A DNA stretch of 64,000 nt from Sphingomonadales bacterium (GTDB lineage: Bacteria; Bacteroidota; Bacteroidia; Chitinophagales; Chitinophagaceae). Within the stretch, counting starts at the first letter, position 1, and each line of letters starts with the position of its first letter. Below are positions 53,515 through 56,960 of the stretch, in pieces. Position numbers and translations under genes: made by a program. Under the pieces are notes generated by a model, which saw nothing but the letters and a program-made list of their open reading frames with translations, was not told the origin of the DNA and ran no database searches. The stretch lies in contig VHBB01000002.1 of assembly GCA_016872155.1 (NCBI GenBank), positions 62,001-126,000 of the forward strand, in the 5' to 3' direction.

Positions 53515-54645
53515 TTAATAGGCAGCAGCGGTCTGTAGGGGGGCAGGCGATAGTTTCTGTACATAAGGCGATGCCTTTTTCCAAAAACCAAAAAAAGAAG
53601 GGTAGTAGCGGTTCACTTGTGGAAACATCCAATCCCGAGCATCTTTAAGGCCGGGAATGTGTTGATAGGCCGGATGCTCTCTGGTAATGATGGATGGAAC
53701 CTGGTACGCGTGCGGGATCTCGCTGAACTCACCGCAATACACCTGTAGTCCTTCGATATTCTTGGCAAGTGCCAATATAAAATCAATTACTTTTTTGCTA
53801 ACGGGATATTGTGCAAAGTGTGAGGGCTCCAGCAACAGTACGCGATTGGCGGGTTCGTCGGCACGCCAAGATGGATCGAGGTGATAGTTGTGGTAAATAT
53901 GCAGGGGCAGCGAAGGATCGATAGAAGGTAGTGGGGTCGAAGGCAGTTCGGTGCGTAGTTCGGGTCTCTCTTGAGCCAGGAGTGCTTCGGGGCGCTCTAA
54001 GGTGGGTAACAGGCTGTAGTCGTGATCGAGCAACGTGTTTTTTTGTTGCGTATGGCAGTATTTATTGATGTTCTCTTGATTGCAATAGTATTTTTTTGAA
54101 GAGAAGCTACCGGCCACCCACTGCCAGCTGCAGGTATTGCTGGCCAAATCGCCATCGAGCAGATGGTAGTACATCCATTGCGAGGGCAGCTTCCAATACG
54201 ATTTACCAATATTGCATACCAGGCTGGCCGTATACATGCGAAGGTGATTGTGCATGTAACCGGTGCTGTATAGCTTTTCTATACCCAGATCGATGGCCTC
54301 GATACCGGTGCATGCCTTGGCAATGGCAGCAGGGAGTGCAGCCGTTTGCAGCGATGTTCTGTTCACGCGAATGTCATCGAACATATCATCGCCCAGTTGT
54401 TGCCACACGCGTTGAAAGTACTCGCGCCAGGCTAACTCTTGTAAGAACCGTTGCACTTCCTCAGGTTTGTACCCTTTGGCAAGCACTGCAGCAGCTACCT
54501 GACGGGTCGAGATTACCCCTCTGGATAGGTAGGGGGACAGGTAGGTAACATCGCCATCTACGTAATTGCGGGTTTGGCCATAGGCCACCGGATCTATGCG
54601 GTCGATCTTATCCCAAATAGAGGCGATATCGGTAGAAAATGTCAT
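53515..54645 (-). CDS. photolyase-like FAD-domain protein with C-terminal Rossmann-like domain (apparent circular permutation)
   Basis: A 376-residue protein that begins directly with the photolyase FAD-binding domain (about 20-195): TYLSPYLSRGVIS, FLQELAWREYF, GYMHNHLRM and DGDLASNTCSWQWVAGSF, all standard. The N-terminal alpha/beta antenna domain is missing at the front. After a Pro/Ser linker (225-245), residues 246-360 (LPLHIYHNYHLDPSW, RVLLLEPSHFAQYPVSKKV, LQVYCGEFSEI) look like such an alpha/beta domain and resemble the N-terminus of the next gene's product (AVWLVEESLFFTQYP). This suggests a permuted photolyase. Repair activity is inferred. It is 25 bp downstream of the FeS-BCP-like gene and probably co-transcribed. 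Confidence 0.82.
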   Translation of the reverse strand: MTFSTDIASIWDKIDRIDPVAYGQTRNYVDGDVTYLSPYLSRGVISTRQVAAAVLAKGYKPEEVQRFLQELAWREYFQRVWQQLGDDMFDDIRVNRTSLQTAALPAAIAKACTGIEAIDLGIEKLYSTGYMHNHLRMYTASLVCNIGKSYWKLPSQWMYYHLLDGDLASNTCSWQWVAGSFSSKKYYCNQENINKYCHTQQKNTLLDHDYSLLPTLERPEALLAQERPELRTELPSTPLPSIDPSLPLHIYHNYHLDPSWRADEPANRVLLLEPSHFAQYPVSKKVIDFILALAKNIEGLQVYCGEFSEIPHAYQVPSIITREHPAYQHIPGLKDARDWMFPQVNRYYPSFFGFWKKASPYVQKLSPAPLQTAAAY

Positions 54646-54670: not shown

Positions 54671-56188
54671 CTATTTAGTTGTATCGAGCTGTTTTAAAAA
54701 CTGACCGGCCAGTCGAAGGTGGGTGGCCTTTTTTTCCGGATCCATTTTATCCCAGGTCTTTAGCAGCATGCCCAGTCTAGGATTTTTTGAGAAGAAATTG
54801 CGGTGTGAATGCATAAAGCGCCAGAAGAGCCCATCCCATACGGCGGTCCAGGCCACGGTCTCTTTGTTGGGTAGGGTAAGGGTGGTCTTCTTATCCCAAT
54901 CACCCATTTTTAGCAGGTAATTGCTGCCGCTTATATAAGGCTTGGTGGTCATAATGCCACCGTCGGCAAATTGTGTCATTCCGTATACATTGGGTACCAT
55001 TACCCAGTCGTAACTATCGATAAAAAAGACCATGAACCACTCATAGACCTGATCGGGGTCGAACTCGCAGAGCAGCATAAAATTACCCAGCACCATCAGT
55101 CTTTCAATATGGTGCGTATAGGCATAGTGCTGCAGTCTTTCAATTAGAATATCGATAGGTCTGATGCCGGTGGTGCCCTTCCAAAAAGAGGTCGGGATCT
55201 TTCGGGTAAAGTTCCAATAGTTGCGGGTGCGTTGACGCACCCCCTCTCTTTCGTATACAATGCGAATAAACTCTCTCCATCCCATAATCTGCCTTCCAAA
55301 TCCTTCTAGCGAGGCCATTGAAATCTTGTGCTTGGTGGCATAGAGCGTGGCCTTGTCTAGTACCTCTTGGGGTGTTATAAGACCTATGTTAAGGGCAGGA
55401 GAAAGAACGGAGTGGTGCAGCCAGACCTGTTTTTCTTGCATGGCATCTTCGTAAGCCCCAAACTCGCTAAAGCGCTGCTCTAAAAAAAGATCGAGTTGTA
55501 CCAGCGCTTCTTGCCGGGTAACCGGGTAGCAGAAAAGATCGGTAGAGCCGGGATGCGTAGCAAAATGTTTTTTTGCGTACTGGGTGGCTTCCTTAACAAA
55601 CGAAGAGGATCTGATCGGAAAGGCCTGCGGCGCCTCTTTTCCTTTGGGGTATGGCTTTCGGTTATCGGCATCGAATGTCCATTTATCGCCAATAGGTTGA
55701 TGATCGTTCTTAAGCAGCCACTTTCGACTCTTTCGCTGCTGAATGTAGAAATCGGTTTGAAAGTAGGTCTTTCGTTTGTCGAAGTAATCGTTAACGTCTT
55801 GCATGCGGTTTAAAAAAGCCGGAGAGCTGTAGCTCGTCAATTCAATTTTTAGCGCAGCTGCCGAGCGATGCAAGCGTTTTTCGAGCCAATGGTCTACGGT
55901 ATCCACATAGTGAATGGCCGTTATTTTTTTAGCCGCTGCCGCTCGAACAAAGGCCGTTACCTCCGCCTTTTTATCGGACGCTTCTAGATACTGAACACGA
56001 TATCCTTTTTGCTCGAGAATTTGTGCATATGCTTTCATCGAAGCCCTGTGTAAAACGATCTTTTGAAGATGAAAGGGGTATTGTGTAAAGAACAGCGATT
56101 CCTCGACCAGCCATACCGCGCGGTCTTTGTGCAAGGCAGGGTGTGCCGCAAAGAGTTGGTGAGGAAAAATTAGGGTGATGGCTGCCAT
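54671..56188 (-). CDS. FeS-BCP-like cryptochrome/photolyase family protein lacking cluster cysteines
   Basis: 505 residues. N-terminal alpha/beta domain: ITLIFPHQLFAAHPAL and AVWLVEESLFFTQYPFHLQKIVLHRASM. C-terminal FAD domain: FGRQIMGWREFIR, YTHHIERLMVLGNFMLL, VYEWFMVFFIDSYDWVMVPNVYGMTQFADGG and KPYISGSNYLLKMGDW, all typical of the PhrB-like (6-4) photolyases with a [4Fe-4S] cluster. However, only Cys220 and Cys374 occur, and the region after SNYLLKMGDW that normally carries a CxxC and a third Cys has none. The cluster must be lost. Start at 56188 chosen because the longer frame crosses the divergent SDR gene. Confidence 0.9.
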   Translation of the reverse strand: MAAITLIFPHQLFAAHPALHKDRAVWLVEESLFFTQYPFHLQKIVLHRASMKAYAQILEQKGYRVQYLEASDKKAEVTAFVRAAAAKKITAIHYVDTVDHWLEKRLHRSAAALKIELTSYSSPAFLNRMQDVNDYFDKRKTYFQTDFYIQQRKSRKWLLKNDHQPIGDKWTFDADNRKPYPKGKEAPQAFPIRSSSFVKEATQYAKKHFATHPGSTDLFCYPVTRQEALVQLDLFLEQRFSEFGAYEDAMQEKQVWLHHSVLSPALNIGLITPQEVLDKATLYATKHKISMASLEGFGRQIMGWREFIRIVYEREGVRQRTRNYWNFTRKIPTSFWKGTTGIRPIDILIERLQHYAYTHHIERLMVLGNFMLLCEFDPDQVYEWFMVFFIDSYDWVMVPNVYGMTQFADGGIMTTKPYISGSNYLLKMGDWDKKTTLTLPNKETVAWTAVWDGLFWRFMHSHRNFFSKNPRLGMLLKTWDKMDPEKKATHLRLAGQFLKQLDTTK

Positions 56189-56243: not shown

Positions 56244-56960
56244 ATGGAATCCATTAAGGGTAAGCAGATCTTATTGACCGGTGCGACCGGAGGCATTGGA
56301 GCGCAAACGGCAAGAATGTTGTCGGCGGGGGGTGCTCGTCTTTTCTTAACGGGCCGCAATCCCGAGCGATTGAGCGCACTGGCAGCCGAATTGAACTTGC
56401 CGGCCTCGCAATATTATTGTGCGGAACTCTCGAGTGAGTCTCAGGTTAACGCCCTTCGGCAACACTATTTTTCTGTATTCTCGGGCATCGATATACTTAT
56501 AAACGCAGCTGGCGTGGGTATTATCCGCCCCATTGAACAATTGTCGGAGTCCGACCTCTTGCAAAGCCTTCAGTCAAACCTGATCGCTCCTTTTTTATTG
56601 GTCAAATCTTTTTTGCCTGCCATGAAAGAAGTCAAAAAGGGTCTGATCATCAATATTCCCGGTGTCTTAGGAAAAGTGCCCATGGCCGGCGCTGCTGCTT
56701 ACTGCGCCGCTAAGTATGGGTTGGTGGGTATGATGCAAAGTATTCGAGAAGAGGTCAAGCGCACCGAGATACGATTTACCAATATTTATTTGGGTGGGGT
56801 AGATTCTGCTTTTTGGGATACGATCGATCTGCGCGTTCAGCGCGATAAGATGATCCAGTCCGAAGAGGCCGCTCGTGCCATCTGGTTTCTATGCCAGCAG
56901 CCGGCCAGCGGGGTGGTGAGCGAGATGGTACTGCAGCCGTTCAATCACCAGGCTATTTAA
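56244..56960 (+). CDS. SDR-family oxidoreductase with Ser-to-Gly at the catalytic triad position
   Basis: A 238-residue short-chain dehydrogenase fold. The NAD(P) motif TGATGGIG is at 12-19, NAAG at 87-90, and the active-site Tyr153 and Lys157 (YCAAK) are intact. The catalytic Ser expected 13 residues before Tyr is Gly140 (IINIPGVLGKVP). It may still bind cofactor and have altered activity, or act as a structural member. Divergent from the photolyase-like genes; downstream gene is proline dehydrogenase with a 86-bp gap. Confidence 0.9.
   Translation: MESIKGKQILLTGATGGIGAQTARMLSAGGARLFLTGRNPERLSALAAELNLPASQYYCAELSSESQVNALRQHYFSVFSGIDILINAAGVGIIRPIEQLSESDLLQSLQSNLIAPFLLVKSFLPAMKEVKKGLIINIPGVLGKVPMAGAAAYCAAKYGLVGMMQSIREEVKRTEIRFTNIYLGGVDSAFWDTIDLRVQRDKMIQSEEAARAIWFLCQQPASGVVSEMVLQPFNHQAI

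Follow-up and report, generated by a model that had tools for sequence, protein, structure and literature searches.

A reverse-order photolyase gene in Bacteroidota with a putative reduced antenna domain at its C-terminus

Described reverse-order photolyases and the Bacteroidota gene

Photolyases with a reversed domain order have been described as NewPHL (Emmerich et al. 2020; PMC13274461) and, in Prochlorococcus, as Phr7 (PMC9426592), both sources being cited, here and below, for the accessible portions of their text. According to these portions the published reverse-order members repair cyclobutane pyrimidine dimers (CPDs), and in Phr7 an N-terminal FAD domain is followed by a short Z-domain, iron-sulfur cysteines being absent (PMC9426592), while the NewPHL of D. 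shibae is credited in an excerpt of PMC8948257 with "a mere Trp dyad". Further reverse-order forms, from marine Synechococcus and Cyanobium, are Phr4/Phr5 (two genes) and Phr6 (fused), which have four iron-sulfur cluster cysteines and for which (6-4) activity was suggested (PMC9426592, same portions). SPLs (Xu et al. 2021), as summarized in the accessible passages of PMC9649867 (cf. PMC9178010), possess an iron-sulfur cluster and no alpha/beta domain, and SPL and NewPHL are treated as one class in the available text of PMC13274461.

The gene studied here, P0001, lies in a 64,000-nucleotide stretch of a Bacteroidota genome, hereafter the window, and its main parts are the following.

53515..54645, minus strand: reverse-order photolyase gene P0001, 376 aa, ATG start (open reading frame list and translation)
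53974..54645, minus strand: N-terminal FAD (catalytic) domain, residues 1-224 (Pfam, AlphaFold2 model, VIA)
53548..53913, minus strand: C-terminal alpha/beta domain, residues 245-366, a putative reduced antenna-domain homologue (lone model, VIA rows, profile match)
53575..53595, minus strand: FFGFWKK, residues 351-357, which in the hhalign register pairs with a stretch close to where the classical antenna domain ends

Like NewPHL and Phr7, as far as these are described in the sources above, P0001 has its FAD domain first and an alpha/beta-type domain last; it shares a Trp dyad with the D. shibae NewPHL (PMC8948257, excerpt), and both P0001 and Phr7 as described are without iron-sulfur cysteines. 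Unlike them it comes from Bacteroidota, where it belongs to a clade of its own (support 99/99 in the 54-row tree presented below), and by profile its C-terminal domain shows no similarity above decoys to those of alphaproteobacterial FAD-first proteins. We file P0001 as a new Bacteroidota member of the published reverse-order class, without iron-sulfur cysteines, an assignment which rests on published descriptions and on alphaproteobacterial relatives standing in for the named NewPHL sequences. It extends the small published group to a Bacteroidota branch. In the portions of the literature that were available no Bacteroidota FAD-first member was found named, and the founding NewPHL and SPL papers may list some; Bacteroidetes are mentioned in the accessible text of PMC9649867 for a different class, PhrSph98.

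P0001 resembles SPLs in having no N-terminal alpha/beta domain and a FAD domain of class I/III-like type, but, with SPLs compared by their partial description only (PMC9649867), its family differs in lacking the cysteines and in possessing a C-terminal alpha/beta domain. With Phr4/5/6, as described, it shares the reverse order of a FAD half and a photolyase-domain half, although iron-sulfur cysteines are absent from the P0001 family; in this feature it is the relatives in Deinococcus and in genome G335 (see below) that resemble Phr4/5/6. Class I and class III CPD photolyases have the same two domain types and key lesion-pocket residues as P0001 and differ from it in domain order, in the third Trp and at Arg342. 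PhrB-type enzymes (FeS-BCP, DPRP), to which the product of the neighboring gene belongs, supply the top structural matches of the P0001 C-terminal domain (6dd6, 7ykn and 8a1h), yet they have the normal domain order and their N-terminal domain gives no sequence match above decoys.

Domain order and homology of the two halves

The original prediction, that a FAD domain comes first with no antenna domain before it, was borne out. Pfam FAD_binding_7 matched residues 67-191 of P0001 (E 1.1e-20), the top PDB photolyases aligned to residues ~21-183, and VIA-align superposed residues 1-218 on residues 173-411 of the Thermus photolyase 1iqr (Z 16.3, rmsd 2.4, 209 residues), so that the model pairs from its first residue with the C-terminal half of the classical enzyme and nothing precedes the FAD domain. 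VIA rows for this domain span residues 1-224. The PhrB-type N-terminal domain PF04244 was absent from P0001 at E up to 1, neither Pfam nor VIA placed an alpha/beta domain ahead of the FAD domain, which departs from the class I/III layout, and the DASH cryptochrome model TIGR02765 reached 72.7 bits, under its cut-off of 317.05. With a mean pLDDT of 94.3 and a pTM of 0.93, the AlphaFold2 model (81 rows) gives a confident prediction of how the two domains are placed. P0001 is no chance fusion, as related genomes supply 24 proteins that can be aligned with it over its full length (identity 42-82%); full-length alignment also covers the best 80 of at least 577 relatives from GTDB species genomes, and in alignment A2, the 81 rows built from these best 80, F351 of the FFGFWKK segment is invariant. 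The reverse architecture is real.

The nature of the C-terminal half required more evidence. Modelled alone, residues 240-366 gave a pLDDT of 94.6 and a pTM of 0.81. Foldseek found no match for this domain at E 0.001 or better, its top rows being unrelated proteins, and plain HMM search with the domain yielded nothing significant beyond its own family; both results would suit a Rossmann-like domain of other origin, such as one of universal-stress-protein type, attached behind a short photolyase and having only the fold in common with antenna domains. When the 1000 best Foldseek chains were re-aligned with VIA, the five top rows were all photolyases, which speaks against such a domain: 6dd6 (Z 7.6, rmsd 2.4, 93 residues, chain 2-130) was followed by 7ykn (Z 7.5) and 8a1h (Z 7.4), and 1iqr reached Z 6.9 (116 residues, chain 2-146). 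Of 50 listed rows, 35 belong to photolyases or cryptochromes, and in each of these the match starts at the N-terminal end. Many of the 35 represent the same few proteins again under other entries, and 13 have alignments that extend beyond the N-terminal domain. Among the other 15 listed rows are six named universal stress proteins, the best with Z 6.6, and all Z values for the C-terminal domain stay below 8, which is moderate and counts against the homology. For this reason sequence evidence was sought.

A profile of 205 family C-terminal domains, compared by hhalign with a merged classical-plus-Deinococcus antenna profile, scored 33.4 (P 7.7e-5) over 110 columns reaching the end of FFGFWKK, a segment to which IFTPYSRKW corresponds in the class I-like enzyme encoded by the P0001 genome. 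Among 69 decoy families the best, dec27, scored 26.6 and the other 68 at most 17.6; dec27, a blindly chosen decoy, proved on inspection, which covered the three best of the 69, to be the standalone alpha/beta gene family, i.e. a relative. The profile comparison with photolyase N-terminal domains envisaged in the original prediction was thus positive for the classical-plus-Deinococcus set and negative for the family of the neighboring gene: PhrB-type N-terminal domains, that family included, scored 16.2-16.5 against the C-terminal domain of the window family, within the decoys, as did alphaproteobacterial C-terminal domains (11.8-11.9). A bridge profile made of three Deinococcus C-terminal domains and two standalone alpha/beta proteins matched classical N-terminal domains with E 1e-12 over 133 columns. 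For L111, a protein of Deinococcus psychrotolerans, the C-terminal region taken by itself gave a match to Pfam DNA_photolyase, the classical antenna domain, that did not pass the family cut-off (E 1e-4); the P0001 C-terminal domain, the four scanned alphaproteobacterial proteins and the Deinococcus protein L122 gave none. No Pfam family at all passed its cut-off in the C-terminal domain of P0001.

Going by these profiles, the C-terminal domain appears to be tied to the ordinary antenna domain through the Deinococcus and two-gene relatives, and in Bacteroidota it is probably a reduced antenna domain, for which the profile evidence is new here. We consider an unrelated Rossmann-like domain quite improbable, as the 110-column match includes FFGFWKK and stands above the 68 other decoys (three best inspected), and as the correspondingly placed domain of relatives does match antenna domains. 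The reading in which P0001 retains both photolyase domain types in reversed order, as had been proposed from the letters of the gene, is supported by the VIA rows, by the antenna-profile match and by the Deinococcus and split-gene relatives, as far as sequence comparison and models can tell. The argument originally given for it fared differently. The motif RVLLLEPSHFAQYP is present at residues 268-281 as stated, but its likeness to AVWLVEESLFFTQYP of the neighboring photolyase does not rise above chance: the C-terminal domain aligned to this neighbor by BLASTP with E 1.6, and the best ungapped score was matched by 129 of 300 shuffles of this domain, so this motif match was dropped as evidence. 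A true feature had been seen for a reason that was partly wrong.

Residues, phylogeny and proposed function

Residues were compared in an alignment of 55 FAD domains, 24 rows of which are classical; positions are given in P0001 and in E. coli numbering.

54235..54249, minus strand: NHLRM, residues 133-137, in which N133 corresponds to E. coli N341, H134 to R342 and M137 to M345
54193..54195, minus strand: W151, corresponding to E. coli W359, Trp in 18 of 19 Bacteroidota rows
54118..54126, minus strand: W174-Q-W176, corresponding to E. coli W382 and W384, both Trp present in 19/19 Bacteroidota rows

The Bacteroidota rows, 19 in all, share E274, W277, N341, N378, W382 and W384 with E. coli without exception; M345 and W359 are each found in 18 rows. 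Key positions of both the lesion pocket and the flavin site are conserved. We take E274, W277, N341, W384 and M345 to be lesion-pocket residues, Asn341 and Met345 presumably being of CPD type; from the roles of their E. coli counterparts W151 would be one Trp of an electron-transfer dyad, W174 its flavin-proximal Trp and W176 the lesion-stacking Trp. The third Trp, W306, which 23 of the 24 classical rows possess, is missing in 30 of the 31 FAD-first rows, and R342 is His in 30/31 FAD-first rows versus Arg in 24/24 classical rows. A C..C..C motif was found in the three Deinococcus rows and the two split rows, with a fourth Cys visible in all five, and in none of the 19 Bacteroidota rows (first 300 residues) or the seven alphaproteobacterial rows.

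In a 54-row tree of FAD domains 31 FAD-first or split rows were separated from 23 classical rows with a branch support of 100/100; the Bacteroidota clade mentioned above lies among the former, and the alphaproteobacterial and Deinococcus groups are joined weakly (88/56). This tree leaves out 6 PhrB-type, 4 neighbor and 3 long classical rows. In the first tree, of 67 rows and including the long PhrB-type rows, the PhrB-type branch came out on the same side as the FAD-first rows; we judged this placement to be a long-branch effect.

Domain order, homology, conservation, neighborhood and grouping are observed, and in our opinion it is quite probable that P0001 is a CPD-type reverse-order photolyase of the NewPHL/Phr7 kind working by the following mechanism. 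The N-terminal helical domain would hold FAD, the binding of which is suggested by homology, together with the lesion pocket. Once excited by blue light, reduced FAD would split the CPD, single-stranded DNA being the most likely substrate, and a chain of two tryptophans, W174 and W151, would recharge the FAD. The shortened antenna-type domain at the C-terminus is predicted to pack against the FAD domain, where it probably protects the cofactor; it need not bind an antenna pigment.

Members of the photolyase superfamily often switch role, and this, together with the change of Arg342 to His, is what could make P0001 a cryptochrome-like photoreceptor instead of a repair enzyme. Such a role seems highly improbable to us in view of the pocket residues E274, W277, N341 and W384 being kept in 19/19 and M345 in 18/19 Bacteroidota rows, of a co-directional PhrB-type gene in the vicinity at 51 of the 80 loci compared (the best 80 of at least 577), and of CPD repair by the published reverse-order members (PMC13274461 and PMC9426592, accessible portions). 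Repair of (6-4) photoproducts or action on double-stranded DNA, unlike the characterized NewPHLs, is improbable too: the (6-4) activity suggested in the available text of PMC9426592 concerns the iron-sulfur forms Phr4/5/6, while the P0001 family is without iron-sulfur cysteines and keeps both Asn341 and Met345. Activity as a CPD photolyase on single-stranded DNA is the most likely specificity.

Distribution, split genes and genomic neighborhood

The survey of the architecture that had been suggested for this gene showed it to be recurrent. P0001 is matched at E<1e-90 in 26 of 58 related genomes, in one of them in two pieces (alignment A1 is without L019, cut by a contig end, and the fragment L027), and a full-length gene (E<1e-100) occurs in 17 of 296 genomes sampled across the phylum. 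The scan of GTDB species genomes gave at least 577 relatives among at least 597 pattern-matching stretches, the best 80 of which were kept. The gene rearrangement originally inferred therefore stands as far as the reversed order is concerned and falls as a one-off in this genome, reverse-order photolyases being already published (PMC13274461 and PMC9426592, in their accessible portions). Beyond Bacteroidota, FAD-first relatives are located on plasmids of Deinococcus and Alphaproteobacteria, and ten annotated plasmid records from these groups label such genes only as "FAD-binding domain-containing protein". Two family members of Bacteroidota type, L032 and L090, come from metagenome-assembled contigs whose labels, Sphingomonadales and Rhodobacteraceae, may reflect bins assigned to the wrong taxon.

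In two relatives the halves are encoded separately. A plasmid of Deinococcus sp. QL22 (L121 2339-3630) carries a FAD gene of 257 aa and an alpha/beta gene of 173 aa, and G335, a genome of the window's phylum but of another class, carries a FAD gene of 263 aa and an alpha/beta gene of 148 aa (L187 2087-3321); in both pairs the genes overlap by four bases, the FAD half precedes the alpha/beta half as in P0001, and the FAD half carries four cysteines of iron-sulfur type. The standalone alpha/beta protein of G335 matches the N-terminal part of that genome's own classical photolyase (E 1.4e-5), and Pfam DNA_photolyase is weak in the standalone proteins of QL22 and G335 (E 2.3e-4 and 0.017, below cut-off). 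These overlapping pairs suggest that the halves can be separate polypeptides, and hence that the reverse order could have originated by splitting of a photolyase gene and rejoining of its parts the other way round. A separate Bacteroidota reverse-order subclass, with the antenna domain stripped down to a lid and its order derived from such a split and swapped rejoining, is conceivable, and we advance it tentatively. The tie between the C-terminal domain and the antenna domain matters for deciding if short photolyases represent an ancestral or a derived state, since they would not simply predate the alpha/beta domain if it is present and has only changed place.

Genome G327 was tried as a FAD-only member and rejected, for there the antenna frame comes first and the FAD frame second; this locus (L186 2856-4305) is a normal-order photolyase spread over two frames, a broken gene or an assembly error. 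In G157 (L174 / L188) the match covers residues 1-83 only, in a short frame that is perhaps a gene remnant, with no family member among frames of at least 110 aa around it.

Upstream of P0001 lies a second photolyase gene.

54671..56188, minus strand: PhrB-type (DPRP) photolyase gene, ~505 aa from the ATG ending at 56188 (PF04244, E 1.7e-56)

Its listed open reading frame extends to a TTG at 56359. The two frames are separated by 25 bases on the same strand and are probably co-transcribed as one operon, an arrangement which recurs, as a PhrB-type relative on the same strand in the flank, in the 51 of 80 loci given above, with flanks of up to ~5 kb, often shorter. A promoter and terminator scan gave 6 and 4 sites versus 3.8 and 3.9 in shuffles, and these sites are given no weight. 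The PhrB-type neighbor at 54671-56188 presumably lacks the cluster-binding cysteines of FeS-BCPs. In this apparent lack it is like the PromaPL type, as the latter is described in the accessible part of PMC9426592.

A DASH cryptochrome over the cut-off was detected in 1 of the 17 genomes with a full-length gene versus 69 of the 166 others with a photolyase-like match (Fisher p 0.003), a statistic that ignores relatedness and assumes that all 70 DASH genomes are within the 183 with such a match; across all 296 genomes the contrast is not significant (p 0.08). NewPHLs reportedly stand in for DASH photolyases, an idea attributed to Emmerich et al. 2020, and the scarcity of DASH fits this idea of replacement. 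A small gene of a DUF2805 cluster (~90 aa; L097 4725-4991, one member Pfam-checked) was observed near 44 of the 80 loci, again the best 80 of at least 577.
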